Origin: a virus
Virus record (IMG/VR): IMGVR_UViG_3300013103_000050
Span: 1-27,329 of that record
Strand: one strand, 5' to 3'
DNA: 27,329 nt
Each line of letters starts with the position of its first letter. Position 1 is the first letter of the stretch. The position numbers were made by a program, and so were the translations under genes. The notes beneath the pieces were generated by a model. It was given only the letters and a program-made list of their open reading frames with translations, searched no databases and was not told where the DNA came from. Positions 1 to 27,329 of the stretch are shown here, one piece after another.

Positions 1-2
1 AA

Positions 3-1474: not shown

Positions 1475-1481
1475 TAAATAG

Positions 1482-1489: not shown

Positions 1490-1509
1490 AACTTAAAAGG
1501 AAAAGAAAA

Positions 1510-2001: not shown

Positions 2002-2009
2002 TAGAAATT

Positions 2010-2041: not shown

Positions 2042-2048
2042 ACATTTC

Positions 2049-2696: not shown

Positions 2697-2700
2697 TTAT

Positions 2701-2708
2701 TATAAATA
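2701..2708 (+). promoter_or_regulatory. Late promoter at the endonuclease start (TATAAATA)
   Basis: Exact late octamer between the gp14 stop and the endonuclease ATG at 2714. T4 spacing would put the transcription start at or next to that ATG, so RNA from this promoter would have almost no leader. It could instead serve mainly gp15 downstream, being the promoter that preceded gp15 before the endonuclease gene arrived. Confidence 0.6.
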
Positions 2709-2713
2709 TATGT

Positions 2714-3463
2714 ATGAATTATACTGTATATCAAACAACAAATATTGAAACTGGAAAAATTTACATTGGGTGTCATAAAACCCAGATCCCAAATGATGAA
2801 TATTTGGGATCTGGGAAACATTTAAAAAATTCAATAAAAAAATATGGTAAAGAAAATTTCACGAAAGAAATATTATTTAACTATGATAATGAATTTGAAA
2901 TGTATGAAAAGGAATTTGAAATAGTTGATGAAAATTTTATATGTAGACAAGACACATATAATATTGTTTTGGGTGGTTGTGGTGGCGGTCATTTAGGAAT
3001 GAAACACTCCAAAGAAACAAAAAATATAATGAAATATAATAATTTAGGAAATAAAAACCCTTTTTATGGAAAACACCATAATAATGAATCTAAGAAAAAA
3101 ATATCAAATACCCATAAAGGAAATCAATATAATTTGGGGAAATCGAGATCACAAAAAACTAAAAATAAAATATCCAAATCAATGAAAGGTTTATCCAAAT
3201 CACAAAAAACTAAAAATAAAATATCAGGTGAAAATAATTACAAATTTTCTGGATATTGGGTTACACCAAATGGAAACTTTATTACACTCAAAGAGGCATC
3301 ATTAAATATTGGTTCATCTTCACTTATTATGAACTGGTGTAAAAATTCAAATAAAATCATATCAAAAAATAATATTGGGAAATCTAAATATCTTCAATCA
3401 TTAAAAGATTATCCATTGGGAAAAACATTTAATGATATTGGATTTTCATTTATTCATAAATAG
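2714..3463 (+). CDS. GIY-YIG homing endonuclease (Seg-like)
   Basis: A free-standing homing endonuclease of 249 residues. The N-terminal GIY-YIG nuclease domain (about residues 1-95) begins YTVYQTTNIETGKIYIGCHK, then has DEYLGSGKHLKNSIKKYG and a Glu-rich helix (EFEMYEKEFEIVDE) holding the metal-binding Glu. Next come NUMOD3-type DNA-contact repeats rich in G-x-K-H/S-[SN]-x-E/K-T-K (GMKHSKETKNIM, NPFYGKHHNNESKKKIS, GLSKSQKTKNKIS; about 95-175). The C-terminal ~75 residues resemble a NUMOD1/HTH-like recognition segment (GNFITLKEASLNIG). The architecture is that of I-TevI and the T4 Seg proteins. Such enzymes cut a related genome and spread their own gene and flanks. No Shine-Dalgarno precedes the ATG, and a 14-bp perfect hairpin lies at codons 23-34, both of which suggest low or controlled expression. 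It is more AT- and Lys/Asn-rich than its neighbours, as expected of a mobile gene. Confidence 0.9.
   Translation: MNYTVYQTTNIETGKIYIGCHKTQIPNDEYLGSGKHLKNSIKKYGKENFTKEILFNYDNEFEMYEKEFEIVDENFICRQDTYNIVLGGCGGGHLGMKHSKETKNIMKYNNLGNKNPFYGKHHNNESKKKISNTHKGNQYNLGKSRSQKTKNKISKSMKGLSKSQKTKNKISGENNYKFSGYWVTPNGNFITLKEASLNIGSSSLIMNWCKNSNKIISKNNIGKSKYLQSLKDYPLGKTFNDIGFSFIHK
2781..2815 (+). repeat. 14-bp perfect inverted repeat inside the endonuclease gene
   Basis: CCCAGATCCCAAAT (2781-2794) and ATTTGGGATCTGGG (2802-2815) with a 7-base loop. This is a strong hairpin for such AT-rich DNA, with seven G:C pairs, and it lies within the conserved nuclease domain. There is no U-run, so it is not a typical terminator. 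It may slow translation, attenuate transcription or be a protein-binding site. Confidence 0.8.
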
Positions 3464-3484
3464 TTATTATATAAGGAAATTTAA

Positions 3485-4279
3485 ATGAAAACCCCATTTT
3501 ATCATAATACCATAAGAAAGATTGTAATAGTTTTTGGTACATTATTTAATGAATTATCTATCAATCGTGAAGATCGTAATGGAATATATCAAGAAATTCC
3601 AGTGCCTATTTCATATATGACAAAGGAAAAATTCATTGCAAGAATTAATAACATCCAGCAACCTGGGGATGAAAAAATAACAATTGAAGAAACCTTACCT
3701 AAAATGTCTTATGAAATGACAGGTATGCGTTATGATAGTGCAAGAAAAGAAAATACTGTTCAAAAAATGCGTTCAAAAGAAAATGATGATTTATTCATGT
3801 TTCAAAGAGTGCCATATAATATAGAATTTACACTGAATATAGCCACACGTAAAATTGATGATAGTTTAAGGATTGTTGAACAAATTGTCCCCTATTTTAC
3901 ACCCGAACTTACATTAAAAATAATTGATATGGAACCATTGGATATCAATACAAATATACCAATTACATTGAGTGATACTAATTATGAAATTGATAGTCAA
4001 GGTGTATTTGATGATAGAAGAACCGTATTTTGGTCATTGACATTTACTGCACAAGCGTATTTGTATGCCAATTATAGAGACAATTCAATTATTAGAAAGG
4101 CTAATGTTAATATGAGAGATTTAGAAAGTGGTGCATTTTATGAACGTGTAATTGCTGAATTAGATCCAATTAATGCAAACAGCAATGATGATTATGACGT
4201 TAAGGTAACTATTGATAATGAAGAAGAAAATACTATACCTAATACAACGGGTGAAGATACGGAGATTGATATACAATGA
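3485..4279 (+). CDS. 15: Tail sheath stabiliser / head-tail joining protein gp15
   Basis: Tail completion protein of the T4 gp15 family, a ring that caps the tail tube and sheath and docks on the neck. It has 264 residues against 272 in T4. Matching blocks: FYHNTIRKIVIVFGTLFNELSI at the N terminus (T4 FYNSSFRRYATLMGDLFSNIQI), PVPISYMTKEKFIARIN (T4 VPITYASKEHFMMKLN), ETLPKMSYEMTGMRYD, VPYNIEFTLNIATRKIDDSLRIVEQIVPYFTPELTLKI, and DDRRTVFWSLTFTAQAYLY. The C-terminal ~40 residues are acidic and low in conservation. The ribosome-binding site AAGGA is about eight bases before the ATG. The stop overlaps the gp16 start (ATGA at 4276-4279), indicating translational coupling. Confidence 0.93.
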   Translation: MKTPFYHNTIRKIVIVFGTLFNELSINREDRNGIYQEIPVPISYMTKEKFIARINNIQQPGDEKITIEETLPKMSYEMTGMRYDSARKENTVQKMRSKENDDLFMFQRVPYNIEFTLNIATRKIDDSLRIVEQIVPYFTPELTLKIIDMEPLDINTNIPITLSDTNYEIDSQGVFDDRRTVFWSLTFTAQAYLYANYRDNSIIRKANVNMRDLESGAFYERVIAELDPINANSNDDYDVKVTIDNEEENTIPNTTGEDTEIDIQ

Positions 4280-4701
4280 AAAATAAAATAGATGATTTTT
4301 TTGATATGACTGATGATGTTCAAAATGAATTAGATGAAGTTGAAAATAAAGAAATTGATATAATTGAAGTTGAACCAATTATTCATCATCCAAGTATTAA
4401 AGAAAATGCATTAGATGATTATAATGCAACCCGTGAATCAATGAAAACAATGATCACTAAGGGTACGGTTATGATTGATGATTTAATTGCAGTTACCAAA
4501 GAATCAGAAAGTCCGAGAGCATATGAAGTATTATCCGGATATATGAAAACATTAACTGATATGAATAAAGCATTGATGGAAATTCACAAAGATACGAAAG
4601 AGATTACAGAGGAAAAAGAGCAAAAACAACATCAAGAAAATAATAGTTATGTGTATGTAGGTTCAACTGAGGATCTACAAAAAGAATTGGAGAATGACTA
4701 A
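4276..4701 (+). CDS. 16: Terminase small subunit gp16
   Basis: A small acidic helical protein of 141 residues (T4 gp16: 164) directly upstream of the large terminase, overlapping gp15 by ATGA. Position and size identify it; sequence features are weak. The centre (about residues 50-110), with TRESMKTMITKGTVMIDDLIAVTKESESPRAYEVLSGYMKTL and then ALMEIHKDTKEITEEKEQ, has the heptad-like coiled-coil character of T4-type small terminases, which assemble as rings that regulate the gp17 motor and help choose the packaging start. Both ends are acidic and probably disordered. The stop overlaps an ATG (TAATG) that opens an eight-codon frame running up to the gp17 start, so the two terminase genes are probably coupled. 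Confidence 0.85.
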   Translation: MKNKIDDFFDMTDDVQNELDEVENKEIDIIEVEPIIHHPSIKENALDDYNATRESMKTMITKGTVMIDDLIAVTKESESPRAYEVLSGYMKTLTDMNKALMEIHKDTKEITEEKEQKQHQENNSYVYVGSTEDLQKELEND

Positions 4702-4727
4702 TGAGTGAAGGTTCAGAGGGCTTTTAA
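4701..4727 (+). CDS. Eight-codon frame bridging gp16 and gp17
   Basis: The frame ATG...TAA, encoding MSEGSEGF, starts on the gp16 stop overlap and ends immediately before the gp17 ATG (4728). It contains the GAGG that is the likely gp17 ribosome-binding site. It would keep terminating ribosomes moving to gp17. More likely a spacer than a functional peptide. Confidence 0.2.
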   Translation: MSEGSEGF

Positions 4728-6374
4728 ATGGCTCAGATAAACAATTTTTATAATGGTAATCCAAAACTAAAAAAAGCTGGAATTAAACAACCATATACAA
4801 AAGAACTTAAAGCGGAATATAGAAAATGTCGTGATGATATTATATATTTCACAAAGAAGTATTGTAAAATCGTGTCCTTAGACGAAGGATTAGTTAATTT
4901 TGAATTAAGAGATTATCAAGAAAGATTATTAAATGATTATTCAAATAATAGGTTTAATATTGTCTTAACATCAAGACAAACTGGTAAAACTATTACAACG
5001 GCCGCATTTTTAATACATTATTTAGTATTCAATGGATATAAATCCGTGGCATTGGTTGCAAATAAAGCAAAAACTGCCAGAGAAATTTTACATAGAATGA
5101 AAAGGATGTATGAAGGATTACCATTTTTCTTACAACCTGGGGTTGTGGAATGGAATAAATCAAGTGTAGAATTGGGTAATGGGTCAACTGTTGTAGCAGG
5201 ATCAACAACATCTGACACTATTCGTGGATTTTCATTCAACATGGTTATGGTTGATGAAGCTGGGTTCATTGATGGATTTGAAGATTTTTATACATCAACA
5301 TATCCTGTTGTATCATCTGGTAAAGAATCAAAGATTATTCTAATATCTACTCCAAATGGAATTAACCTTTTTTATAAATTGTGGAAAGAGGCGAAATTGG
5401 GACATAATACCTTTCATCCGTCAAGGGTAGATTGGTGGGAAGTTCCACATTATGATGAAGCATGGAAAACTGAAACCATTAAAAATATTGGTCAAAAAAG
5501 ATTTGATCAGGAATATGGTAATAAGTTTTATGGTTCAAGTGGTACATTAATTGATGGTAATAAACTTGAATTACTTACATGGGTTGATTCATTAGAAAAT
5601 GATGATGAAAATTATAACGAATATAATGAACCAGAAAAAGGACATAATTATGTTATAACTGTTGATCCATCTGAGGGTGTTGGTATAGATTCTAGTGTTT
5701 GTAATGTTATGGATATTACAGAATTTCCATATAAACAGGTTGCAGTATATAAAAATAATTTAGTTCCTGTATTATTATTGCCTGAAATTGTCATACAATT
5801 AGCACATAAATTCAATATGGCATATGTATTAGTGGAAACAAATAGCATTGGAGCACAAGTAGGATCAACGATATATTATGATTATGAATATGATAATATT
5901 ATTACATCTGCTATTAAATATGGTGATAATGAATTAGGTATATCGAGTAAGAATTTAGATTTTGGGTTAAGAATGACAAAAAAATCTAAATTGATAGGAT
6001 GTTCAAACTTAAAACAATTGATTGAAAGTGATAAATTAGAAATTCAAGATTTTGATACAATCGAAGAACTTAATACATTTTCCAAAAAAGGAAAGAGTTA
6101 TGAAGCAGAAGAAAATAAGCATGATGATATAGTCATGACATTAGTTTCATTTGCTTGGTTGACAACACAAGATTATTTTTCTGATTTATTCAATGTTGAC
6201 GTAAAACGAGAAGTATTGAATAAAATGAAGGGAGATATGAATATGCCAATGAATGTTGGGTTCATGCCTGATCATAATCCTGAATTACCAACTGATATCT
6301 ATGTTCCTGATTATGGTATCAATAATCCAATGAATTCACAAAATGAACTAAATATACCATTTGATCAATGGTGA
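4728..6374 (+). CDS. 17: Terminase large subunit gp17 (packaging ATPase and nuclease)
   Basis: The DNA-packaging motor and headful nuclease, docked on portal gp20. It has 548 residues against 610 in T4. The ATPase half has Walker A SRQTGKT (82-88), Walker B MVMVDEAG with D176 and E177, and coupling motif ISTPNG (206-211). The Q-like region upstream is FELRDYQERLL (58-68). The nuclease half is RNase H-like, with acidic residues D313 in ITVDPSEGVG, E370 in VLVETNSIG and D466/D467 in KHDDIVMTL. These are the three metal-binding positions of the T4 enzyme, so both activities look intact. The short N terminus and C-terminal tail account for the smaller size. No intein or intron is present, although T4-like terminase genes are known insertion targets. 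Confidence 0.97.
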   Translation: MAQINNFYNGNPKLKKAGIKQPYTKELKAEYRKCRDDIIYFTKKYCKIVSLDEGLVNFELRDYQERLLNDYSNNRFNIVLTSRQTGKTITTAAFLIHYLVFNGYKSVALVANKAKTAREILHRMKRMYEGLPFFLQPGVVEWNKSSVELGNGSTVVAGSTTSDTIRGFSFNMVMVDEAGFIDGFEDFYTSTYPVVSSGKESKIILISTPNGINLFYKLWKEAKLGHNTFHPSRVDWWEVPHYDEAWKTETIKNIGQKRFDQEYGNKFYGSSGTLIDGNKLELLTWVDSLENDDENYNEYNEPEKGHNYVITVDPSEGVGIDSSVCNVMDITEFPYKQVAVYKNNLVPVLLLPEIVIQLAHKFNMAYVLVETNSIGAQVGSTIYYDYEYDNIITSAIKYGDNELGISSKNLDFGLRMTKKSKLIGCSNLKQLIESDKLEIQDFDTIEELNTFSKKGKSYEAEENKHDDIVMTLVSFAWLTTQDYFSDLFNVDVKREVLNKMKGDMNMPMNVGFMPDHNPELPTDIYVPDYGINNPMNSQNELNIPFDQW

Positions 6375-6406
6375 GTTAAGAACGAAAAAATACTAAATAG
6401 ATAAAA

Positions 6407-6414
6407 GATAAATA
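6407..6414 (+). promoter_or_regulatory. Possible late promoter upstream of gp18 (GATAAATA, 7/8)
   Basis: A single mismatch at the first base of the late octamer, in the 70-base gap before gp18. That gap also carries a strong AAGGAG ribosome-binding site about nine bases before the ATG. Sheath is needed in large amounts, so a promoter here is plausible. Confidence 0.4.
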
Positions 6415-6444
6415 ATATTTAATTGAATAGGAAGGAGAATACTA

Positions 6445-8877
6445 ATGGGATTTCAATTATCTCCAGGTGTTAATGTTAGTGAAGTTGATTTAACAGGATT
6501 TGTACCTGCCGTTGGAACAAGTGGTGGTGCTTTTGTTGGTCAGTTTGAGTGGGGTCCAGTATTGGATTACACCACACTAGAAAATAAGAAATTATTACAA
6601 AAGTGGTTTGGTAAACCAAATGATGTAAATTACCGTGATTGGTTTTCATGTTCAAACTTTTTGGATTATTCAAATAATCTGAATATTGTTCGTGTAGTCG
6701 ATGATGCGGTTGCTTTAAATTCTGATGTTGTTGGAACAGGTATTTTAATTAAAAATTCAACACATTATACCGAAGTTTATGGTACTCCATTGGGAGATGC
6801 TTCATTTATGGCATCAAAATATCCAGGATCAAAAGGTGATACCATTCGTATAATTGTTATTGATAATAACACATATGATGAAGTTGCTTTGGATTATGGT
6901 GATGTTTTACCAAATAAACCAGAAACAAGTGATTATGTTAGAAATGTTGGTGGTGAAAATGATGAAGTACATATTTTAGTTTTAGATACATTAGGTAATT
7001 TTACTGGTGTTCCTGGAGCAGTTCTTGAAACTTATGAATTCTTATCAAAAGCTAGTGATGCTGTTGATTTAGACGGTAAACCAATTTTTTATGGTAGTGT
7101 TTTAAACAAAGAATCAGAATATGTATGGTTCTTAGAAGTTCCAGATAGTGCAGATCTTGCCGTTGGTGGATCAATTCAATCAATCAGTCTTATTGATGGT
7201 GGTGATGGTTATACTGTTGCTCCCGCAGTTGTTATTACTGGTGATGGTTCAGGTGCTACTGCTACTGCTGTTTTAGCAAGTACAGGTGAAGTTTGGGATG
7301 ATGTTATCATTACTCTTAATGATCGATATGCAATTGCTCCAACAATTACTGTAAATGGTGATGGTTCAGGTGCTCTTGCTACTGCTGTTTTAACAAGTGA
7401 TGGTGAACTTGATTCAATTACACTTTCAAATGGTGGAGCAGGATATAATGTTGGTGATACGATTGCCGTAACAGGTGATGGTGTTGGTGCAACTGCTGAG
7501 GTTGGTTCTGAAACTGGTAATGTAATTGATACAATCATAGTTACAAATGCAGGGTCAGGTTATACAACTATTGTAATCGATCCGGATACTACTTCTGGTG
7601 GTGGATCAGGTGGTGTTGCTACTGGTAATCTTACATTTGAAGTTGATGTTGTAAATATCACAAATGGTGGTTCAGCGTATACAAGTGCTACAATCGCATT
7701 TAATAGTGGTATTGCTACTGCTACCGTTACTGTTCAATTTGCAGTTGATGCTGTAAATATTGTTGTAAATGGTTCAGATTATATTGATGGTACAACTGTT
7801 GTTGATATTGCTATTGAAAATGGCGTTCAAGCTACTGGTACTGCCGTTGTAACTCCAGGAGCAGATTATGATGCTATTTGGAATACCCCTGCTTTAAACA
7901 GTAAATATCAATCACTAGCAAGTGCTTGGGATAAACAATTTACAGGTGGTGTTGATTCAGCAAATGTTGATGAAAGTGCATTAATTGAAGGTTGGGACAT
8001 GTTCCGAAATTCAGAAGTTGTTGATGTATCATTACTTATTATTGGTGATGCTGGTGAAGGTATCGGTCCGAATTCACATACAACTGTTGTTAAACATGTA
8101 GTTGAAAATATTGCAAGTTGGAGAAAAGATTGTGTTGCATTTTTCAGTCCAAAATATTCAGATGTTGTTAATCAACCCGAAACGTTAGCGGTAGAAAATT
8201 GTGTTAATACACGAAACAATGTCAACATTTCAAGTTCATACGGATTTATGGATAGTGGTTGGAAATATCAATATGATGTTCACAATGACAAATATCGTTG
8301 GATTCCATTAAATGCTGATATGGCTGGTGTTTGTGCTCAAAGTGATTTAGCCCGTGATCCTTGGTGGAGTCCTGCTGGATTTAATCGTGGACAGATTAAA
8401 AATGTTATTAAATTAGCATTAAATCCAAATAAGGGAAATCGTGATGAACTATATCAATCGAATGTAAATCCGGTTGTATCGTTTGTTGGTGAGGGAGTAT
8501 TACTATATGGTGATAGAACTCAATTAGCAAGACCAAGTTTATTCCAAAAATTAAACGTTCGTAGATTGTTTATTGTACTTGAAAAAGCGATTGCAAGATC
8601 TGCCAAATATCAATTATTTGAATTCAATGATGCATTTACAAGAGCACAATTTGTTTCACAAGTTGAGCCATATTTACGTGATGTTCAAGGTCGTAGGGGA
8701 ATTAATGATTTCCGTGTAGTGTGTGATGAAACTAATAATACAGGCGAAGTAATTGATCGTTCTGAATTTGTTGGTGATATTTACATTAAACCAAATAACT
8801 CAATTAATTTCATTCAATTAAACTTTGTTGCGGTTCGTAATGGTGTTGATTTTGATGAAATCGTTGGTAAATTTTAA
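6445..8877 (+). CDS. 18: Tail sheath protein gp18 with a large repeat insertion
   Basis: The contractile sheath subunit. The N-terminal domain starts SPGVNVSEVDLTGFVPAVGTSGGAFVGQFEWGP, as in T4-like sheaths. The conserved C-terminal assembly domain runs from about 515 to 810, with WGP-type and DPWWSPAGFNRGQIKNV (638-654), NVNPVVSF..GEGVLLYGDRT (673-691), NVRRLFIVLEKAI (704-716) and the terminal AVRNGVDFDEIVGKF. At 810 residues it is about 150 longer than T4 gp18 (659). The excess is explained by a Gly/Thr/Val-rich insertion at about residues 243-472 (nt 7171-7860) of tandem units such as LIDGGDGYTVAPAVVITGDG, LSNGGAGYNVGDTIAVTGDG and VTNAGSGYTTIVI. These units resemble the domain in the protein at 1510-2001. 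The insertion replaces or extends the protruding, surface-exposed sheath domain and probably decorates the outside of the tail. Confidence 0.95.
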   Translation: MGFQLSPGVNVSEVDLTGFVPAVGTSGGAFVGQFEWGPVLDYTTLENKKLLQKWFGKPNDVNYRDWFSCSNFLDYSNNLNIVRVVDDAVALNSDVVGTGILIKNSTHYTEVYGTPLGDASFMASKYPGSKGDTIRIIVIDNNTYDEVALDYGDVLPNKPETSDYVRNVGGENDEVHILVLDTLGNFTGVPGAVLETYEFLSKASDAVDLDGKPIFYGSVLNKESEYVWFLEVPDSADLAVGGSIQSISLIDGGDGYTVAPAVVITGDGSGATATAVLASTGEVWDDVIITLNDRYAIAPTITVNGDGSGALATAVLTSDGELDSITLSNGGAGYNVGDTIAVTGDGVGATAEVGSETGNVIDTIIVTNAGSGYTTIVIDPDTTSGGGSGGVATGNLTFEVDVVNITNGGSAYTSATIAFNSGIATATVTVQFAVDAVNIVVNGSDYIDGTTVVDIAIENGVQATGTAVVTPGADYDAIWNTPALNSKYQSLASAWDKQFTGGVDSANVDESALIEGWDMFRNSEVVDVSLLIIGDAGEGIGPNSHTTVVKHVVENIASWRKDCVAFFSPKYSDVVNQPETLAVENCVNTRNNVNISSSYGFMDSGWKYQYDVHNDKYRWIPLNADMAGVCAQSDLARDPWWSPAGFNRGQIKNVIKLALNPNKGNRDELYQSNVNPVVSFVGEGVLLYGDRTQLARPSLFQKLNVRRLFIVLEKAIARSAKYQLFEFNDAFTRAQFVSQVEPYLRDVQGRRGINDFRVVCDETNNTGEVIDRSEFVGDIYIKPNNSINFIQLNFVAVRNGVDFDEIVGKF
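7171..7860 (+). repeat. Degenerate tandem GG-x-GY repeats within gp18
   Basis: About six to seven imperfect protein-level units, each roughly 30-40 residues: N-G-G-[AS]-x-Y, a strand, T/N-G-D-G-x-G-A-x-A-x-A, a strand. DNA copies are diverged, but GGTGATGGTTCAGGTGCT recurs at 7241 and 7357, so part of the array is recently duplicated. Confidence 0.75.
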
Positions 8878-8890
8878 TAAGGAGTAAGTA

Positions 8891-9415
8891 ATGGGAATTG
8901 GAGTTAATGAGTTTATAGCCAACTTTGAACATGGTGGTTATAGACCAAATTTATTTAAGGTATCAATTGCAAGTCCATTTATGGTTAATGCTACCAAATC
9001 ATCATACTTGTGTAAGTCAACAAGTTTGCCACCTAGTAATTTAGGTTTGGCAGATGTGTCTTATATGGGTCGTAAGATTAAGATCGCTGGTGATAAGGAG
9101 TTTCCATCATGGACAACTGATTTTTATGAGGATAACGATATGGTAAATCGTAAATCTTTTGAATATTGGTTATCAAAAATTTCAGCACATGAAGCTAATA
9201 CTGGTTATATTAAACCAAGTGAGTATTATGCTACTATTGTTTTGGATTTATTGAGTCATGAAACTGGTAATCCGGTTAGAACGTATAAACTAATTAATGC
9301 TTTTCCAACAGAAGTTGGTGAGCTGGCATTAGCATATGATTCTAATGATACAATTGGTGAATTTTCGGTAACATGGGAATTTAACTATTGGACAGTAAAC
9401 GATATTGATATTTAA
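8891..9415 (+). CDS. 19: Tail tube protein gp19
   Basis: The inner tail tube subunit, 174 residues (T4 gp19: 163). Characteristic start: VNEFIANFEHGGYRPNLFKVSI, then CKSTSLPPSNLGLADVSYMGRKIKIAGDKEF, FPSWTTDFYEDNDMVNRKSFEYWLSKI, and a C-terminal AFPTEVGELALAYDSNDTIGEFSVTWEFNYW. This is the single beta-barrel fold shared with other tube and Hcp proteins. Ribosome-binding site AAGGAG ends about six bases before the ATG, 13 bases after the sheath stop, so it is co-transcribed with gp18. It is followed by a strong terminator. Confidence 0.95.
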   Translation: MGIGVNEFIANFEHGGYRPNLFKVSIASPFMVNATKSSYLCKSTSLPPSNLGLADVSYMGRKIKIAGDKEFPSWTTDFYEDNDMVNRKSFEYWLSKISAHEANTGYIKPSEYYATIVLDLLSHETGNPVRTYKLINAFPTEVGELALAYDSNDTIGEFSVTWEFNYWTVNDIDI

Positions 9416-16740: not shown

Positions 16741-19700
16741 ATGCCTAATTTATATAAACTAACAATACCAAATACAGAAATTTCAAATGATTTATCTGAT
16801 TTTCCAGTATTATTAAATTTTGATACAACTTCTGGTTCAACTGATATAGATTCAACAGATCTATTTAATCACTTTGCATTTCCGGAAAGTGTTGATGATG
16901 ATTTCACGGGTGAAGATAATACTCAGCCTGATAGTAAATTGTGGATGGATGTTGATTTTGAATTGGATATAGGTGGCGTTACAAATACAATAGCTGATAT
17001 TGAAATATTAAACAATGAACTTAAAATGGATATTATTACTGATATTAGTAATGGTTATATTAGATCTAAATATAAAGTAAGTGGTGATTTTGATGTTCAG
17101 GTTAATTTCAATATACCCAATGGTATTCCAGTTCTAAGCGATAGTTGGGAATTTGGATTACGTTTTATAACAGATAAACACGATCCATTATTATTCCCTA
17201 TCGAAAATTTTACTATGGCAAGATATGGTGGTAGTAACGGTCCGTATTTATTTACTGGTACGGATATTACTAATATTACTGGTGGTAGTAATGATTTAAG
17301 TGGAAAATTAAGACTAACAAGAACTGGAAGTGTTATAACTGGTTATTATTGGAATGGTACTACATGGGTTGGTTTTGGTTCAGGTATTTCAAGTGCTTTA
17401 TCAATAGGATATTTTCAACTTGATATAAGAACGTGGAGTATTGATCATTCAATTAAAGTTGAATATGATAATTTTATTTTAAATTCCGGTAATATTGAAT
17501 GGGATGCAGAAGATTTACCAGAAGATTTAAATTTATTAAAAGTTGAATCACACACAAAACACAATAAAGTAGTTATGGGATTAAATCCATATGCTTATTG
17601 GCGTTTGGGTGAAATAACTGGCACTACTGCTTATGATTTATCTGGAAATAATTATAATGGTGCTATTGATGCTGGTGTTGTAATTAATCAATCCGGATTA
17701 TTAGTTAATGATGTAAATAAATCTATGCGTTTTACTGGTGATGGTATTGATTTTATTGATATTGGATCTGATGAATTAAATCAAGTTTCTATTAGTTGTT
17801 TGGTTAAATTTGAAGATTTAACATCAAATCAAATAATATTTAAAGAGGGTGGAAATGGAAACGGATTTGGTGTTGGTATAGTTGATTCTAAATTAAGTAT
17901 TGGTGTAACCTCAAATTCATCTAATACAAATTGGGGATATGCCACAAGTAATTTATCACTAAATCAAATATATCATATTGTTTGGATCTTGGATGTAACA
18001 AATTCCAAAATTCAAATATATCTTGATGGTGTTTTAATTGTAGATGAAACTGCTGTTATTGGTACTCATGATGGAACATGTAATTGTGCTATTGGAACAT
18101 CTAATTGTTATACGGGGTCATTTCAAAGTGCTCTTAGTGGTTTAGGGAATGATGAACCGTTTATTGGTACTATTGATGAAGTTGCAATATTTAATCAAAC
18201 ATTAAATATTGCAGAAGTTAATGAATTATATAATTCCACATTAGATAACATTATAGAATCATGTTCAATTGAAATTGATAGATGGGATCATAATAACAAT
18301 CAAGCTCAATTATGGGTTAAAGTTCCTTATGTTTATTCAAATGATGATACATTATTAACATTATCTAAAATGGAACACAATTATTCAATATATGTAAAAA
18401 GTTTAAAGCCTGTTGCATATTGGCGTTTAGGTGAATCAACAGGAAGTACAGCTTTTGATGAAATGGGGTCATATAATGGTACTTATATAAATTTACCAAC
18501 ATTAAATCAAAGTGGATTATTAGTTGATGATGGTGATGCTTGTGTTTATTTGGATGGTGTAGATCAAATAATTTCTGCACCATTTATATTTTCGGGTGAC
18601 ATGGATTCAACGGATTTAACATATACATGTTTAGTTAATCTTCCTGCGTTTAATACTTATGGAGCATTTTCTAATCAAGGATTATATAATTATGAATATA
18701 CAGTTGATGCAACGGGTCATGTTGTTGTATGGTATCAAGATGCTACAATAATAACATCAACAAATACATTAACATTAAATGAAACATATTTTCTTACATT
18801 AACAAAAGATGGAACAAGTCATACATTATACATATATGATATTAATGGTTTGGTTGAAAGTGTAAATGTAACTTCAAGTAAAAGTTTTACTTGGGATGAA
18901 ACAAATTTTTTCATTGGTAGCAATGGAAGTTCTAATTATGCTAATGTAAAAATTGATGAAGTTGCCATATTTGATTATGTATTATCATTACCGGAAATTA
19001 CAGAAATATATAATCAATCAATAGCAATAATTCAAAATCATGATATTGGTATTACTGGTGAAAGTCCTGCACAAGATGTATGGACAGAATATACTGCTGT
19101 TTATCATTTAAGTTCAGATGGTGCGGATAGTACAGCAAATGCGTTAGATGGTTCTATGATCAATATGGATTCATCTAATATAATTGATGGTGGAATAGGT
19201 AAGGCATTATCTTTTGATGGTACAACAGAATATATTAATATTCCACATAATGCATTATTTGATTCTGTTGATGGTTATCTTATAGAAAATACAATTAGAC
19301 CATTAACAACATGGAACCCTGTTGATCAAAAATACGCTACAATTATATCAAAAAATGCGGTTTGGGGTACTGCTGGTTTTTCACAAAATTTATATTTAAG
19401 AAATACATCAAATGATGTTAGATTAGAACATTATATGAGGGATGGTGGTAGATTAGTTAATATTTTGGGGACAGGTATAGTAGATTATACTGCTGATTTC
19501 AAATCACATTCATTTGTTTGTACTGCATTAACTGCTATTGATTCATATACAGATTCTTCTATTGATACACAAGATGTTCAAACTCTTGTAACATCATATA
19601 ATATGGGGTCAGATGATGTTCATATTGGATTAGGATATAGTGCTGATCCAAATGATGTTGGTTTCAATGGTATCATCCAAGAAGTTAGAATTGGAACATC

Positions 19701-20187
19701 AAGTAAACCTGTTGAATGGATAACAGCAAATGATCAAAGTATAAAAGATACTTTGATTATATATGAAAATACACAATTTAGAACAATTTCCGGAACCATA
19801 ACAGAAAGTTTTGATGTTGTGAATTGGTTGGCAAGAGCATGGTTAATGAGTGATGGTTCATTGTCTGCCGAAGAAATTACATCAAGTGGCACATTTGATT
19901 TAACTATTCCATTTGAAAGATCTGATACACATATGGTAACCGTATCGCCTATAATTGGGGACAGTTGGATAGAATCAAATATCACATTATTGGACGATTT
20001 GGTTTTTCCAACTAATCCAACAACAATACCATATTATTATAAATGTATTATTGCAGGTATAACCGGAACAAGTGAACCAACATGGACAGTTGGAAATGGT
20101 GATCAAATTACAGATAGTGGTGTAACATGGGAATTAGTAGAAGGAATGATACAACCAATAACTCAATTTCCAGTAATTCCTAGCTAA
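16741..20187 (+). CDS. Large multi-LamG virion protein (DUF2341-like plus three lectin-fold domains)
   Basis: A 1148-residue protein. Residues 1-260 look like a DUF2341/concanavalin-like start (YKLTIPN, LSDFPVLLNF, then a long jelly roll). LamG domains follow at about 281-505 (NPYAYWRLGE... TIDEVAIFNQTLNIAEVNELY) and 555-760 (KPVAYWRLGE... KIDEVAIFDYVLSLPEITEIY), which are clear tandem duplicates. A third domain is at about 784-1010 (TAVYHLSSDG, then GIIQEVRIGTSSKPVEWITANDQS, as in bacterial DUF2341-LamG proteins). The C-terminal ~130 residues contain ITGTSEPTWTVGNGDQITDSGVTWELV, a small module common near the ends of phage tail and fibre proteins. Likely a receptor-binding or adhesive fibre. 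It overlaps the next start by TAATG (20185-20189). No hydrolase catalytic motif was seen. Confidence 0.72.
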   Translation: MPNLYKLTIPNTEISNDLSDFPVLLNFDTTSGSTDIDSTDLFNHFAFPESVDDDFTGEDNTQPDSKLWMDVDFELDIGGVTNTIADIEILNNELKMDIITDISNGYIRSKYKVSGDFDVQVNFNIPNGIPVLSDSWEFGLRFITDKHDPLLFPIENFTMARYGGSNGPYLFTGTDITNITGGSNDLSGKLRLTRTGSVITGYYWNGTTWVGFGSGISSALSIGYFQLDIRTWSIDHSIKVEYDNFILNSGNIEWDAEDLPEDLNLLKVESHTKHNKVVMGLNPYAYWRLGEITGTTAYDLSGNNYNGAIDAGVVINQSGLLVNDVNKSMRFTGDGIDFIDIGSDELNQVSISCLVKFEDLTSNQIIFKEGGNGNGFGVGIVDSKLSIGVTSNSSNTNWGYATSNLSLNQIYHIVWILDVTNSKIQIYLDGVLIVDETAVIGTHDGTCNCAIGTSNCYTGSFQSALSGLGNDEPFIGTIDEVAIFNQTLNIAEVNELYNSTLDNIIESCSIEIDRWDHNNNQAQLWVKVPYVYSNDDTLLTLSKMEHNYSIYVKSLKPVAYWRLGESTGSTAFDEMGSYNGTYINLPTLNQSGLLVDDGDACVYLDGVDQIISAPFIFSGDMDSTDLTYTCLVNLPAFNTYGAFSNQGLYNYEYTVDATGHVVVWYQDATIITSTNTLTLNETYFLTLTKDGTSHTLYIYDINGLVESVNVTSSKSFTWDETNFFIGSNGSSNYANVKIDEVAIFDYVLSLPEITEIYNQSIAIIQNHDIGITGESPAQDVWTEYTAVYHLSSDGADSTANALDGSMINMDSSNIIDGGIGKALSFDGTTEYINIPHNALFDSVDGYLIENTIRPLTTWNPVDQKYATIISKNAVWGTAGFSQNLYLRNTSNDVRLEHYMRDGGRLVNILGTGIVDYTADFKSHSFVCTALTAIDSYTDSSIDTQDVQTLVTSYNMGSDDVHIGLGYSADPNDVGFNGIIQEVRIGTSSKPVEWITANDQSIKDTLIIYENTQFRTISGTITESFDVVNWLARAWLMSDGSLSAEEITSSGTFDLTIPFERSDTHMVTVSPIIGDSWIESNITLLDDLVFPTNPTTIPYYYKCIIAGITGTSEPTWTVGNGDQITDSGVTWELVEGMIQPITQFPVIPS

Positions 20188-23100
20188 TGGCATATACACC
20201 AAATAACTCATATCAATTCAGTGAATATAATTCACCATCATCATCATTTAATTTTGATTTTGAAATTGAATTATATCCTACTGTCTTATATTCAGGTGAA
20301 GAAAGTGTATTAGATGATTTAAAAATATTTCCATTTTCACCAGAATTACCATTTAATTTTGGTTTATGTGATAAAGAATTAAATTGGGAATACAATAATG
20401 TGTGTACTCACAATAATTCATATACAGGTGAAAATACCTTTATTGAATTCACACAAGATAAAAATTATGAATATAATTTCGCTATATGTGATTTATGGGA
20501 TTATGGTGATGATATTGAATTATCTGAAACATGTGGTATGTTTATTAATACTGGACAAAGTTGTGAATTTGATATTATCACTTTCAAAAATCAAGAATTT
20601 AATTTTGATATTTGTGGTGATGGTAATATTAATGTAAGAAATAAAAATTTAACCAATATTCAACTTGATTATTTAGAACCATGTGAAATCATATATAGAA
20701 TGGAGCCTATTTATTCAGGTGAATCCATTTCAACTGCATTACATATTTCTGGAAAAAATTACCAATTTGATATCACTTTATGTGATAGTGAAACAAATCC
20801 TCAACCAATTGATATAATACCTCACGTATTTTCTTTTAATAGACCGTGGAATTATATATGTTCATCAATAACACTTGATGCTTCTACTGGTGAAAGTGCG
20901 TCTGCTACTATTCTTGGTAGTTTAAAATTACCATTAGATCCTACTTATACAGGCGAAAGTGCCGATTTAACTAATTTAGGTTTAGATATTTCATTCACAA
21001 ACATGAAGGGATATACAGGTGAAGAAGCTGATGTTGATTTCTTTACTAGACCATTTGTTACCTTTGATATTCAAAATCTTTCAGGTGAATATGGTGAAAC
21101 CGATATATATCGTTCAATTTTTATTGGAACAGATATCACTTATACAGGTGAAGAAGTTGATGCTGATATGGAAACTATCGGACCAATTAATCCAATAACA
21201 GATAGTTATACAGGTGAAGAAGTTGATGCTGATTTTGCAATTACTGCAATATTAAACCCATTAATGTATTCCGGTCAAGAAGTTGATGCTGATTTAAAAG
21301 ATGATCCATTAATTGAATTAGAAAATCCAACAATAGATACTGGTGAAGAAGTTGATACTGATTTGGAAATTTTCCAAGCACCAGCATTAACATTGGATTC
21401 TATGTATGGTGGTGAATTGGGGTCAAGTTATTTAAATGTAACTTATGCTTTGAGTTCTATTACTTATACAGGTGAATATGCCGAATTTAGTGTATTAAAT
21501 TTAGATACTGTTTTTGCTGTTGATTATAATACAGGTGAAGAAGCTGATGCTGATATTAAAACAAATTCACCGGATGATTTGGAACCAAATGCTGATAGTG
21601 GTGAATATTCTGATGCATTTGTGGCAACATCATTAGTATTATTCCCTAGAACATATACAGGTGAATATAGTAATGGTGCAATGAGTACAATACCTGCCAT
21701 ATATTTTGCTCCAAAATCATACGCTGGTGAACGTGCTGAAATTGATGAATTAATTGAAGAAACAGAATATTATATTGCTATTGGTGGTGAATATTCTGAT
21801 GCTGGATTATCAAGAGAAATTTCTTTTACACCATATAGTAATTGGACAGGTGAGGAAGTTAAAACAGAAGCACTTAATTTAGAGTTCACTATATTTGAGG
21901 CTAATTCATTAATCAATGGTCAATCAATGAGTGTTGTATTCACAACCATTGCCGGACCTTCACTAGCATTTGATTCTATGTGGACAGGTGAATATGCTGA
22001 ATCTGAGACAGGAATTTTATATTATCCTATATTTATTTTAGATACAATTATCGGTTCACAGGTTATGTATGATGGTTTGGGTGGTGCTGGTGGATTGAAT
22101 TTCTGTACAGATTGTTGTCCAATACCAAATCAATTTGGTGAAAATGATGATCCATTAATTTTTGATGTTAGACCACAAGACAGGGAAGTATGGGGTCGAT
22201 GTGGTCCGGATGAAGATACACAATTCCATACAAGTCTAACGGCTGGAATTAGATTTGAACCTATTGCCTATCATGGTGAATATGTTAAATCATACATAGA
22301 CAAGCAATATATGGCTTTTGGTGAAATGGATGGGTCATGTGATGATGTTCTTGAATTTTGTGAACCATTAGTTTGTATTGATGGAAAAGATAGAGAGGGT
22401 GAGGATTGTGTTCACGATGATTTATATTGGTTATATAATAGAACACCAATTCCAACTAAATTACCAAGGGTTAATGAACTTGAACCTGTTATAACAACTG
22501 GCGAGAGAATTGTTTTATGGTGGGAACCTGTTGATGATTTTGTATCACGTATGGAACAAAAATTCACAGTTGATTTAACACTTCCATCATTGGTGGATAC
22601 TTTTTATACTGGTGAAGATTTTATTATTAGTTTATCGTATGATGAATCTGATTGGAAATATCCATTCAAATTAAATCGTGGTGGAGAACAAGGATACTTT
22701 ACATTTGAAGCTAACGAGAATATGAGATTTTGTCCTGGATATTTAATTCCAAGAGGCGATAATGTTATATTTGATTTTGCTTCTGCAATATTCACAGAAT
22801 GTTTTGGTTATTTTGCTAAAACAGGTGAAATGGTAAAACCTGTTGATTTATTAAGTGAAGCTGGAATGTCTGCGAGAAGTACAAAGAATGGTCAAGTTAT
22901 GAAGTTCTTATTACGAGTGACTGGACCTTGGGAATTAAATTCTACTAATGGACAAAAATTTAGATTTGAGTTATCAACTACTGTTCTTATAAAACCGAAT
23001 AGAATTAAAAGTGGTCAATCTGCATTAGCACATTTATATCGTCCTCCTACATATTGGACTATGGCAAGTGGTGAAATGGCACGTTTAGCACAACTTGACG

Positions 23101-23597
23101 TATCATTGCCTGGAATTAGTTGGATAACCGAAGATGGTTGTATTGAAAATATATTCAACCCATTGACAGAAGATGGTGATATTGATTTAGAGTATGAAAA
23201 CTTTGAACGATGTGTTGAATTTATGCCTTACTTTGGTAAAGTTGAAGCGATATGTGATGATAGTGTTTATATTTATCACGTTATAATAAGACCTGAAATG
23301 ATGGGTAATAATTTTGTAGTTGATAAAATTTCATTTGCAACTGAAAAATTATTTAACTTAGAATGTAATTCAGGTGAAGATGTTTATATTCAAGAATATG
23401 TTGGTGAAGATGGAGCAGAAATTAATGTAGATTTAGAAACATTCCCTGTTATTCCATTAGATGATTTTAAATTAATGGGTACTGGTGAGAATTCATTTTC
23501 TATACTAAATACTACAAATACATTTGAATTTGAATTATATAGTAGTGAAGAAGCTGATGCTATTGTTAATGGTGAATTAGTCTTGGAGTTTGGATAA
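20187..23597 (+). CDS. Large TGE-repeat structural protein
   Basis: An 1136-residue protein of unknown family, probably a fibrous virion component. It carries about 30 copies of a short motif, [YNDW]-[TS]-G-[EQ]-x-[AV]-[DE]-[AT]-[DE]-[LFM], spaced 20-23 residues apart in its most regular stretch (nt 21010-21990; for example YTGEEVDADM, YTGEEVDADF, YSGQEVDADL, DTGEEVDTDL). The motifs alternate with hydrophobic strands. Copies become sparse after about residue 620, where Cys-rich segments appear (FCTDCCPIPNQFGEND; CDDVLEFCEPLVC). The C-terminal third contains further TGE/SGE copies in longer spacing. The whole protein is strongly acidic. No signal peptide or enzyme motif. Each unit probably forms a strand-turn of a repetitive beta rod. 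It overlaps both neighbours by TAATG, so it is made together with the LamG protein and the Cys-rich protein. Confidence 0.6.
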   Translation: MAYTPNNSYQFSEYNSPSSSFNFDFEIELYPTVLYSGEESVLDDLKIFPFSPELPFNFGLCDKELNWEYNNVCTHNNSYTGENTFIEFTQDKNYEYNFAICDLWDYGDDIELSETCGMFINTGQSCEFDIITFKNQEFNFDICGDGNINVRNKNLTNIQLDYLEPCEIIYRMEPIYSGESISTALHISGKNYQFDITLCDSETNPQPIDIIPHVFSFNRPWNYICSSITLDASTGESASATILGSLKLPLDPTYTGESADLTNLGLDISFTNMKGYTGEEADVDFFTRPFVTFDIQNLSGEYGETDIYRSIFIGTDITYTGEEVDADMETIGPINPITDSYTGEEVDADFAITAILNPLMYSGQEVDADLKDDPLIELENPTIDTGEEVDTDLEIFQAPALTLDSMYGGELGSSYLNVTYALSSITYTGEYAEFSVLNLDTVFAVDYNTGEEADADIKTNSPDDLEPNADSGEYSDAFVATSLVLFPRTYTGEYSNGAMSTIPAIYFAPKSYAGERAEIDELIEETEYYIAIGGEYSDAGLSREISFTPYSNWTGEEVKTEALNLEFTIFEANSLINGQSMSVVFTTIAGPSLAFDSMWTGEYAESETGILYYPIFILDTIIGSQVMYDGLGGAGGLNFCTDCCPIPNQFGENDDPLIFDVRPQDREVWGRCGPDEDTQFHTSLTAGIRFEPIAYHGEYVKSYIDKQYMAFGEMDGSCDDVLEFCEPLVCIDGKDREGEDCVHDDLYWLYNRTPIPTKLPRVNELEPVITTGERIVLWWEPVDDFVSRMEQKFTVDLTLPSLVDTFYTGEDFIISLSYDESDWKYPFKLNRGGEQGYFTFEANENMRFCPGYLIPRGDNVIFDFASAIFTECFGYFAKTGEMVKPVDLLSEAGMSARSTKNGQVMKFLLRVTGPWELNSTNGQKFRFELSTTVLIKPNRIKSGQSALAHLYRPPTYWTMASGEMARLAQLDVSLPGISWITEDGCIENIFNPLTEDGDIDLEYENFERCVEFMPYFGKVEAICDDSVYIYHVIIRPEMMGNNFVVDKISFATEKLFNLECNSGEDVYIQEYVGEDGAEINVDLETFPVIPLDDFKLMGTGENSFSILNTTNTFEFELYSSEEADAIVNGELVLEFG
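21010..21990 (+). repeat. Tandem TGE-motif repeats (period 60-69 bases)
   Basis: GGTGAA or GGTCAA codon pairs recur at 21147, 21213, 21273, 21342, 21411, 21471, 21534, 21600 and 21660, giving steps of 60-69 bases. The following GAAGTTGATGCTGAT is conserved at DNA level in three successive copies, so the array has grown by recent duplication. Confidence 0.8.
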
Positions 23598-24682
23598 TGT
23601 CTTGTGAATTGAATGAAAATACAATACCCTTAGATGCTGATATAATATATGAGGGTCATTTGGATGGATTTGGTGATGTTGACACATATTCATTTGATAT
23701 GATTGAGAATGAAACAATTACATTCAAGGTGAATATTGTTAATGATAGTGGTTCAGGTACATTACCAAATGCCACATTAAAATTATTTAAAATATTTGAT
23801 GGTAATGTAATTGATTTAGGAACATCATATTTACAAAGTCAGGTTAATGTATTTAACTATGATGGTGTTGTTGGGGATTATTATTTCTGTTTAGAAAACC
23901 TATATTCTTGTAATTATAGTGTGTTGGTAGAATTCACAGATTATGATGGTATTGTATTCACAAGGATGTATTCTTATTCAGGTGAAGCTATGGATGGTGA
24001 GTGGCCGATTGTTGAAATTCCACCATGCAATCAACCCGTGGCATATGAAATAACAAACGGTAAATTACCATTAGATATATCAAATGAACCGGAAGATTTT
24101 ACATTTGAATCTGCTGGAATTATATATGGAGTTCCTGGAGAACAAGATTGTGAAAGTGATGATGATGAAACACCAAGTTGGAACTGGAAACGATATGATG
24201 ATGAAACCGGAATACATCCACTTGGCAAAGAATATGATTTCATAGTCAGAGCATATTTTATTCAATATCCATACGTTTTTATTGAAAAAGCATTTAAAAT
24301 TTGTGTGTTTAATAATTGGGATTATGATAAACCTGATTTATTAAATCTACAAAGAACCGAATATGATGTTTCATATGTTGAAGTAGAATTACCGGATCAA
24401 TCACCATTATGTCCACCATGTACGGAGACTAAGGAAATTATTACAGAACGTATTATTAATTGGAAAGAATATGATATAGAAGGATTCCTGAAACGTATGG
24501 ACAAACTTATGTATGAAAAACAATGTAAAGTTAGACATGAATTACCTGAACTTGATAACGTTTATCATGAGCCTGAAATTATCATAAAAGAAGAAAAACT
24601 ATGTGATATTTGTCCAGAAGATGAAGAAGAAAAACCATTTGTGTCTGAACCAATTCAATCTTGTCCGGTATGTACAGAATGA
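23597..24682 (+). CDS. Cysteine-rich virion protein upstream of the PAAR spike
   Basis: A 361-residue protein of unknown family. Residues about 15-115 (IIYEGHLDGFGDVDTYSFDMIENETITFKV... GDYYFCLENLYSCNYSV) have the pattern of a bacterial pre-peptidase C-terminal (PPC)-like beta domain. A single TGE-type motif (YSGEAMDGEW, about 134) links it to the preceding repeat protein. Next (about 148-245) comes an Ig-like He-PIG-type stretch (YEITNGKLPLDIS... ESAGIIYGVPGEQD... YDFIVRAYFI). The C terminus is acidic and has paired cysteines (CPPC, CDICPED, CPVC), which suggests metal binding or disulphides. It sits directly before the PAAR gene and probably belongs to the tail tip or baseplate periphery. 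The domain calls are tentative. Confidence 0.55.
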   Translation: MSCELNENTIPLDADIIYEGHLDGFGDVDTYSFDMIENETITFKVNIVNDSGSGTLPNATLKLFKIFDGNVIDLGTSYLQSQVNVFNYDGVVGDYYFCLENLYSCNYSVLVEFTDYDGIVFTRMYSYSGEAMDGEWPIVEIPPCNQPVAYEITNGKLPLDISNEPEDFTFESAGIIYGVPGEQDCESDDDETPSWNWKRYDDETGIHPLGKEYDFIVRAYFIQYPYVFIEKAFKICVFNNWDYDKPDLLNLQRTEYDVSYVEVELPDQSPLCPPCTETKEIITERIINWKEYDIEGFLKRMDKLMYEKQCKVRHELPELDNVYHEPEIIIKEEKLCDICPEDEEEKPFVSEPIQSCPVCTE

Positions 24683-24688
24683 TAAATA
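24681..24688 (+). promoter_or_regulatory. Possible late promoter (GATAAATA, 7/8) upstream of PAAR
   Basis: A one-mismatch octamer overlapping the stop of the preceding gene, 18 bases before the PAAR start. Weak evidence; the same variant occurs before gp18. Confidence 0.3.
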
Positions 24689-24706
24689 AGATAAAGGAGA
24701 ATTACA

Positions 24707-24997
24707 TTGTCGGTTCCAATAGGTAGAATATCGGAAATATGTAGTGGACATCAATGTTATCCACCATCAATTGCTATTTCTGCAAGTTCTAACGTATTTG
24801 CGGAATTACTACCAGTTCACAGAGTTGGGGACAGTTACATACCACATTGCTGTTTAAGTTGTCATGGGATAACAACAGCGAGGGGATCATCATCTGTTTA
24901 TGTAAACGGTAGACCTTCTGCACATATCGGAGCTATGGCGAGTTGTAGTAGTGTAATGATAACCGGAGCATCAACCGTTTGGATTGAGGGATCTTAA
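24707..24997 (+). CDS. PAAR-domain baseplate spike tip protein, TTG start
   Basis: A 96-residue PAAR protein, the sharp cone capping the central spike (T4 gp5.4 role) that first pierces the host envelope. The motif sequence is clear: ISEICSGHQCYPPS at the N terminus, VHRVGDSYIPHCC, GITTARGSSSVYVNGRPSAHIG, and ending SCSSVMITGASTVWIEGS. His and Cys residues (H15, C17, H47, C48/C49, C52, H54, H73, C79) are of the kind that bind the metal ion at the tip. The start is TTG, supported by the AAAGGAGA ribosome-binding site seven to eight bases upstream; no ATG fits. The stop overlaps the gp25 start (TAATG). Confidence 0.92.
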   Translation: MSVPIGRISEICSGHQCYPPSIAISASSNVFAELLPVHRVGDSYIPHCCLSCHGITTARGSSSVYVNGRPSAHIGAMASCSSVMITGASTVWIEGS

Positions 24998-25389
24998 TGA
25001 GACAAACACAAGAAAATTTTTATTCAGATTTAGATTTAACATTTAATACACATCCACTAAACAGTGATATATCCGTATTATTTGATGAAAATAGTATTGA
25101 ACAAAATATGTATAATATATTAATGGCAAATAATGGTGATGCTAAATTTCATCCCGAAAAATGTCTTGGTATTAGGGATATGTTATTTGAACCTATTAAT
25201 ATTATCACAGAAGAACAATTAAGAATAAAAATAACAAATATATTAGAATCGTGGATGCCGAGAATTGAGGTAATACACATTGATGTTGAATCAATTAGGG
25301 ATGAAGGTTATAGAATAACAATATCATACATAACGATAAATATTGTAAATGAACAACAAACTGTATTGTTTTTAGATAGGATAAGATAA
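24997..25389 (+). CDS. 25: Baseplate wedge protein gp25
   Basis: Small lysozyme-like baseplate component (T4 gp25, 132 residues; here 130), placed at the sheath-baseplate interface with gp6. Family blocks: FYSDLDLTFNTHPLNSDISVLFDENSIEQNMYNILMANNGDAKFHPEKCLGIRDMLFEPI, with the conserved N/T-P-L-x-x-D and FHPE.LG segments, then ITNILESWMPRIEV. It sits between PAAR and gp6, five bases before gp6, in the usual order. It is thought to nucleate sheath assembly rather than act as an enzyme. Confidence 0.95.
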   Translation: MRQTQENFYSDLDLTFNTHPLNSDISVLFDENSIEQNMYNILMANNGDAKFHPEKCLGIRDMLFEPINIITEEQLRIKITNILESWMPRIEVIHIDVESIRDEGYRITISYITINIVNEQQTVLFLDRIR

Positions 25390-25393
25390 CAAA

Positions 25394-27202
25394 ATGGGAA
25401 AAAATTTAAAAGTAAACAAACTTGATTTTGATGATATAAAAGAAAATTTAATTGAGTTTCTAAAAGGTCAAGAAAAATTTAAAGATTATAATTTTTATGG
25501 TTCTGGATTTGATGTTATATTAGATTCATTGGCATATAATGCATTTTATATGGGAACGTTTGCTCATTTGTTAGCCAACGAAGCATTTATTGATTCTGCT
25601 AATTTAAGAGAAAGTTTAACAAGTAAAGCCAAATTATTTAATTATATTCCAAAATCATCATTTTCTGCTATTGCTGATGTTAATGTCAAATTAGATATTA
25701 ATGAAGATAATGAACCTGCTGATGAAAAGTTTTTAATTGAACGGGGTGAATTTGCGGAATCCGGTAATAATCTATCAGGTTTAATAAGAAAATTCATTTT
25801 AATTGATGATGTGTATGTTTATAACAAATCAATTGCAACAAGTGGTTTTCTTTATCAGACTGATACACTTGAAATATATGAAGGTGAATATATTACAGAT
25901 CACTTCACAAAAGATATTTCACAAAATTCAACTTGGAACCAAGTATACAGATTAACAGCAAAAGATGTTGATTATCGTACAATAAGAATTAAAGTATATG
26001 ATAGTGATACAAGTAGCAATTATCATACATATAAATTAGCTTCTGATTTTATGTTAATTAATGGCGATAGTCAAGTATTTTTTATTACTACTGATGATAA
26101 AGGGTATTATGAGATATTATTCGGCAATGATGTTTACGGTAAAGCTCTTGAAGATGGAAATTACATTGAAATAACATATGTCGAAAATAAAGGCGAATTG
26201 GGTAATGATGCATCATTATTTGATTATATTGGTAAAGATATAATTGGTAGAGATTTAATGCCTGTTGATGTAACCATCAATACTGAAATGGATTCTGATG
26301 GTGGTCGTGGTGAAGAAACATTAGAAGAACTTAAATACAATGTACCACATCATTATAAACGTCAAAATCGTTTGGTAACTATTGAAGATTATAAGTCTGT
26401 TCTTTTAGCTGAATACAATAATATTCAATCTATTAATGTTTGGGGTGGTGAAGATAATTATCCTAAAGTTTATGGTAGAGTATTTATTTCAATTAAACCA
26501 AAAATAGGTAATATTTTATCATCTAAGGCAAAAGAGAAAATACAAGAAACAATACTACACAAATATAACATTGTTACCATTGATACAACAATTGTTGATG
26601 TTGATTTCTTATACTTAAATTTAACAAATAATACCAAATTTAAACCATTAGATACGGATAAATCTGCTGGTGAAATTGCAAATTTGGTTAATGATACTAT
26701 TCATGATTATGATGATTTTCAAGTATCACGTTTCGATGGTTATTATTCAGATGCTTCTTTATATGAGCAAATATTAAATGCAGATCCATCAATCATTAGT
26801 ACATATAATAATATTACATTAGAAAAACAAACCAAACCATCATTGGAAACTTCACAATCTTATGTGATTGATTTTAATGGTGCGATTTTTAAAAATACAA
26901 TTCTAAGTAATGAATTTACATTTAGAGGATTACCAAGTTATTTTGATGATGATGGTGAGGGTAATATTATAATCCATTATGAAAGTTTAATTGATGGTGC
27001 AAAATATACTTATCTTGATGAATATTTTGGTACAATTGATTATGATACTGGAATATTAAATACTTCCAATATTATTATTGATAATATTACAGATGGTGAT
27101 TTTTTAATTACAACCGCTACACCAATCGAACCTGATTTTTATCCTTTAAGAAATATGAATAGTTATTTTCTTCATCTAACCACTCAAAATACGTTGTTAT
27201 AA
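25394..27202 (+). CDS. 6: Baseplate wedge protein gp6, C terminus replaced by inverted DNA
   Basis: The baseplate wedge core (T4 gp6, 660 residues), whose dimers form the inner ring that transmits the contraction signal. The 602-residue frame starts MGKNLKVNKLDFDDIKENLIEFLKGQEKFKDYNFYGSGFDVILDSLAYNAFYMGTFAHLLANEAFIDSANLRESLTSKAKLFNYIPKS in family style; the central part has GRGEETLEELKYNVPHHYKRQNRLVTIEDYKSVL, the most conserved block. Near the end is GDFLITTATPIEPDFYPLRNM (residues 568-588), as in other gp6 C termini, but the last 14 residues (from about nt 27158) read NSYFLHLTTQNTLL and are antisense to other coding sequence. A fitting ending, IIKINKVSIEVTEYNDNK, is found on the opposite strand at 27271-27327. 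So residues 1-588 look genuine and the listed stop probably is not. Confidence 0.85.
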   Translation: MGKNLKVNKLDFDDIKENLIEFLKGQEKFKDYNFYGSGFDVILDSLAYNAFYMGTFAHLLANEAFIDSANLRESLTSKAKLFNYIPKSSFSAIADVNVKLDINEDNEPADEKFLIERGEFAESGNNLSGLIRKFILIDDVYVYNKSIATSGFLYQTDTLEIYEGEYITDHFTKDISQNSTWNQVYRLTAKDVDYRTIRIKVYDSDTSSNYHTYKLASDFMLINGDSQVFFITTDDKGYYEILFGNDVYGKALEDGNYIEITYVENKGELGNDASLFDYIGKDIIGRDLMPVDVTINTEMDSDGGRGEETLEELKYNVPHHYKRQNRLVTIEDYKSVLLAEYNNIQSINVWGGEDNYPKVYGRVFISIKPKIGNILSSKAKEKIQETILHKYNIVTIDTTIVDVDFLYLNLTNNTKFKPLDTDKSAGEIANLVNDTIHDYDDFQVSRFDGYYSDASLYEQILNADPSIISTYNNITLEKQTKPSLETSQSYVIDFNGAIFKNTILSNEFTFRGLPSYFDDDGEGNIIIHYESLIDGAKYTYLDEYFGTIDYDTGILNTSNIIIDNITDGDFLITTATPIEPDFYPLRNMNSYFLHLTTQNTLL

Positions 27203-27284
27203 ATGAAACAAACGTTGGATATTTATCGTGAGCATATGAAGGTAGTTGACTTGTGATTAATGGGGCAAGTTTATTTATTGTCAT
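27158..27284 (-). CDS. 5' fragment of the gene downstream of gp6 (virion or baseplate type), inverted
   Basis: Reading from 27284 towards lower coordinates, an ATG opens MTINKLAPLIT, then SQLPSYAHDKYPTFVSF, then ITTYFEWLDEENN. The formal frame runs on to a TAG at 27117, but the part beyond about 27158 is antisense to genuine gp6. The pattern L-P-x-[FY]-x(3)-x-[YH]-P-x-F-V-x-F-[IL]-x-x-Y-[FY]-E-W-L is familiar from the N termini of large virion/baseplate proteins in T4-like marine phages. Its start overlaps the stop of the inverted gp6 end, the same tight coupling used elsewhere here. Only about 42 codons are present; the rest lies on the other side of the junction. Confidence 0.65.
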
Positions 27285-27329
27285 TATATTCGGTCACTTC
27301 GATTGATACTTTATTAATTTTAATAATGT
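27271..27329 (-). other. 6: Probable displaced gp6 C-terminal coding segment, inverted
   Basis: On the - strand, codons 27327-27274 read IIKINKVSIEVTEYNDNK, followed by TAA (27273-27271). Placed after FYPLRNM of the + strand frame, this gives a normal gp6 ending: an Asn before a short hydrophobic strand I-x-I-x-x-V-x-I-x-V. The TAA lies inside the first codons of the next gene, whose ATG is at 27284-27282. The segment continues past the window edge. Confidence 0.65.

Follow-up and report, generated by a model that had tools for sequence, protein, structure and literature searches.

The contig and its genes

The window analyzed here covers a virus record from end to end (27,329 bases), so that position 27329 is also the end of the contig. 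Close to this end lies a plus-strand open reading frame (25394-27202, 602 amino acids) that belongs to the T4-like gp6 baseplate wedge family, matching PHROG 219, a baseplate wedge subunit (E = 1.7e-134), and PF21379 (E = 5.4e-19). The frame is broken near its C terminus, and the features around the break are as follows.

25394-27154, plus strand: correct part of the gp6-like baseplate wedge gene, residues 1-587 of 606 (PHROG 219; identity to L006, the reference locus described below)
27145-27155, plus strand: 11-nt inverted-repeat arm TTTAAGAAATA at the join (agreement with the reverse complement of the downstream arm)
27155-27202, plus strand: spurious gp6-frame tail (MNSYFLHLTTQNTLL, stop) made by the join (in 0 of 38 relatives' gp6 C termini)
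27156-27329, minus strand: 174-base segment, reverse-complemented, with its true place directly after 27155; runs to the contig end (L006 5936-5763)
27156-27284, minus strand: first 43 codons of the next gene, baseplate-wedge-like (561 amino acids in L006; PF23786, PHROG 26741, PHROG 17744)
27271-27329, minus strand: true last gp6 residues (IIKINKVSIEVTEYNDNK, stop); gp6 ends this way in L006 and, with few changes, in L002-L005

Scanning of viral contigs returned 58 loci with relatives, six of them close (L006, L002, L003, L004, L005, and L007). At the amino acid level, L006 shows zero differences in the aligned part, L002 is 97% identical, and L003, L004, L005, and L007 are 72-84% identical. 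L006 lies in the 144,243-base contig IMGVR_UViG_3300013099_000017 and comes from the same virus population as the window. Its sample is 3300013099, and the inverted and normal orders described below may stem from different samples. Sample 3300013099 also contains a 17 kb contig (IMGVR_UViG_3300013099_000157, locus L076) that matches window 1-8931 with 4 mismatches. It and the 144 kb contig overlap opposite ends of the window, which thus connects two contigs from a single phage.

The comparison of the window with the 144 kb contig covers 7,983 bases and shows only 11 differing positions, all of them within the 49 bases at 19289-19337. This patch sits in a gene for a LamG-type protein (16741-20187), at about residues 850-866, where the differences change seven residues (GYLIENTIRPLTTWNPVDQKYATIIS versus GYLIETTYKPLTTWNPANQDYITIIS). 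It resembles targeted hypervariation or a recombined patch. An assembly cause is also possible, since the site is 117-165 bases from the end of the 144 kb contig. We found neither a reverse transcriptase (PF00078) nor a template copy in either of the two contigs, which together form an incomplete genome. The window also encodes a 1136-amino-acid protein (20187-23597) in which a YTGEEVDAD-type motif recurs many times in degenerate form; the protein matched no Pfam family. A homing-endonuclease-like gene (2714-3463) is located between virion genes; by eye it has a GIY-YIG-looking N terminus, together with NUMOD3 motifs.

An inverted join inside gp6

The 5,762 bases up to the join (window 21394-27155) are 100% identical to L006 1-5762 in BLASTN, and L006 reads on without a break past the position matching 27155. 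The intact L006 gp6 (606 amino acids) matches Pfam Gp6-like_1st and has the C-terminal end PLRNNIIKINKVSIEVTEYNDNK. The window gp6 is identical to it over 587 residues, to ...DFYPLRN (27154), beyond which the frame gives MNSYFLHLTTQNTLL and then a stop. This agrees with the initial annotation of the sequence, in which the plus-strand frame stops matching its family at about 27157. Positions 27329-27271 of the minus strand encode what is missing, the C-terminal IIKINKVSIEVTEYNDNK and its stop.

The rest of the window matches L006 in reverse. Positions 27156-27329 align with L006 5936-5763 with 1 mismatch in 174 (BLASTN), and the E value of this reversed match (1e-91) excludes chance as the source of the inverted segment. 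Furthermore, the last base of the window, 27329, corresponds to the first base that L006 has after 27155. We confirm that the join is inverted and lies inside gp6, and we place it to the base. The minus strand of the last 172 bases had been proposed to hold the missing gp6 end and the next gene; this content is borne out, with the length corrected to 174 bases.

Eleven bases at 27145-27155, TTTAAGAAATA, are common to the sequence before the join and to the reverse complement of what lies beyond the flipped segment, and the two diverge before these bases. This agreement rules out the earlier suggestion that ATGAA at 27155-27159 is what the two sides have in common. The partner arm, TATTTCTTAAA, is found 174 nt downstream in L006 and is absent from the window. 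Both arms are mere coding sequence, for PLRN and YFL. The repeat is perfect only in the window's own population, being imperfect or missing in L002-L005 and L007. We counted 17 11-bp inverted repeats within 400 nt of each other in 9.8 kb of L006, against an expectation of 5.3 ± 3.0 from first-order Markov simulations. Such repeats are therefore common in this AT-rich genome, above the expectation of a simple model.

Gene order in related contigs

On the minus strand of the window, the gp6 stop overlaps the ATG (27284) of MTINKLAPLITSQLPSYAHDKYPTFVSFITTYFEWLDEENNYS. The L006 gp6 stop likewise overlaps the ATG of a 561-amino-acid protein, with both genes on one strand and in normal order. The full L006 protein matches PF23786 (Baseplate_wedge, E = 3.9e-10), PHROG 26741 (E = 1.5e-63), and PHROG 17744, a baseplate wedge subunit (E = 1.2e-29). 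The sole mismatch in the flipped segment falls in this gene, at window position 27253: the window has C on its minus strand and L006 has G, giving Thr versus Arg. The window state is also present in L002 and L004, which makes this a variant carried by L006.

All six close relatives (L006, L002, L003, L004, L005, and L007) have the un-inverted order. The initial annotation had named two observations that would speak against an inverted join: homologues that share the window's gp6 ending, and a lack of database matches to the minus-strand peptides. Neither was made. Of 38 relatives in which the gp6 C terminus was read, none has the window-type ending, and the peptides were found in L006 and, in order behind gp6, in the six relatives.

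Among the 58 fetched relatives, no inverted ends were found besides that of the window. In a search of viral_contigs (2.9 million contigs), the normal junction was present in L006, and the left inverted junction was not found outside the window's own record, which this search may leave out. An in-place inversion also needs a right-hand junction, in which the reversed segment is followed by TATTTCTTAAA and ATGAATTTAA. This second junction, which the initial annotation had proposed to look for, was found in neither viral_contigs nor the window.

The same block occurs in a more distant phage. Xanthomonas phage X1 (OQ427096) has PAAR, gp25-like, gp6-like, and next wedge genes in identical order, and its gp6 overlaps the next gene by 4 bases. 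Its gp6 is 34.5% identical to that of the window phage, and the next genes of the two phages are homologous (28% identical over 452 residues, E = 6e-53). Phage X1 differs in being without the inversion and in having another host and another genome size.

Origin of the inverted end

We consider it highly probable that the contig end is a fold-back (inverted) chimera and not a biological feature. We infer this artefact, its in vitro origin, and the step responsible from the comparison of contigs, not from reads; what we observed directly is the precise position of the join, the repeat, and the un-inverted order of the relatives. The fold-back is favored because the join lies at a contig end, the relatives are un-inverted, neither inverted junction occurs elsewhere in viral_contigs, the repeat is unconserved, no invertase was found, and an inversion would break two structural genes.

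Under this explanation, the true genome would pass straight from gp6 to the wedge gene behind it. The chimera would arise in amplification (strand-displacing or other), in library preparation, or when such molecules are assembled: a 3′ end halting at ...TTTAAGAAATA could anneal to its 11-nt complement, TATTTCTTAAA, 174 nt onward, and copy back. The product would consist of gp6, the next 174 bases reversed, and gp6 reversed. An assembler would then keep the unique 174 bases and halt where the product re-enters sequence that had already been assembled. The window stops just where the reversed gp6 would begin, and a contig halted on re-entry, with its overlap discarded, would have its last base at 27329. 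A toy de Bruijn graph of the fold-back product alone had boundaries only at 27155 and immediately past 27329 (k 31-127).

Of the chimeras formed in multiple displacement amplification (MDA), 85% are inverted, and priming takes place at complementary stretches that reach 21 nt (PMC1855051, Lasken and Stockwell 2007). The joined parts are most often 250-300 nt apart, with overlaps of 5-8 nt (PMC4595205, PLoS One 2015). The known signature of chimeras from strand-displacement amplification is an inverted join over a short range, with a few complementary bases as primer (PMC1855051, PMC4595205). The window shares with these MDA chimeras the inverted orientation of its second part, the origin of that part from nearby in the genome, and a join at a short complement, here 11 nt and within the range of up to 21 nt (PMC1855051). 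However, 11 nt is on the long side, since most overlaps are 5-8 nt (PMC4595205). Furthermore, MDA chimeras were seen in reads, whereas the window join is in an assembled contig from a sample whose amplification is undocumented; our literature search found no paper on the L006 sample, 3300013099. A comparable fold-back from another library step would look alike.

The closest rival is that some of the phage genomes truly carry a 174-bp segment inverted in place between the 11-bp repeats, as rare recombination damage. A perfect 11-bp inverted repeat marks the exact limits of the segment, which would suit such an event as well. The toy graph also accommodates it: a mixed population with the true inversion produced a boundary after 27329 too, and the contig end, weakened as proof of a fold-back, is therefore not decisive alone. 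Had all genomes carried the inversion, the contig would have run on in the toy graph. However, the right-hand junction is absent from viral_contigs, no relative shows the inversion, and gp6 would lose its last 19 residues and the next wedge gene its first 43 codons. We regard it as very unlikely that a minority of genomes carries a true 174-bp inversion across the boundary of the two genes, made by recombination at the 11-bp repeat.

Less probable still, and in our view barely credible, is a programmed DNA switch in which an invertase would drive phase variation at gp6 and its neighbor. The tail-fibre switches of Mu (Gin/gix) and P1 (Cin/cix) use a dedicated serine invertase, longer specific sites, and alternative functional fibre genes. 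The window resembles them in that a DNA segment takes the opposite orientation between inverted repeats, and an inverted repeat at the join is all that speaks for a switch. No invertase, longer sites, or alternative fibre genes were found in the window phage. The repeat is only 11 bp long and one of the 17 such within 400 nt in the 9.8 kb of L006, it is not perfect in L002-L005 and L007, and just one of the two junctions of a switch was detected, the right-hand one being absent from viral_contigs and the window. The flip yields no alternative protein end, just two broken structural genes. Searches for a resolvase/invertase (PF00239) and a tyrosine recombinase (PF00589) were negative for both the window and the 144 kb contig, an incomplete genome, and positive for most or all control genomes. 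Of the explanations first offered, a real inversion (programmed or not) or a fold-back chimera, the inverted join inside gp6 has held, the fold-back is the favored origin, and the programmed switch is unsupported.

The reading that gp6 truly ends in NSYFLHLTTQNTLL, with the minus-strand peptides a product of chance, draws on a plus-strand frame that is open to the stop at 27202, but it is refuted by the match of those peptides to L006 in all but one residue, by their place in order behind gp6 in six relatives, and by the reversed E value of 1e-91.

Implications

A fold-back at a contig end can be recognized without reads, from an independent assembly, a short inverted repeat, and a halt where the contig would re-enter itself. 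For quality control, 27156-27329 should be trimmed or annotated as reversed, which keeps a truncated gp6 and a false gene order out of records. If the inversion were nevertheless real, it would amount to damage in two structural genes, not to a known kind of switch. The real gene order is PAAR, gp25-like, gp6, and the next wedge gene, an ordinary arrangement, as in Xanthomonas phage X1.
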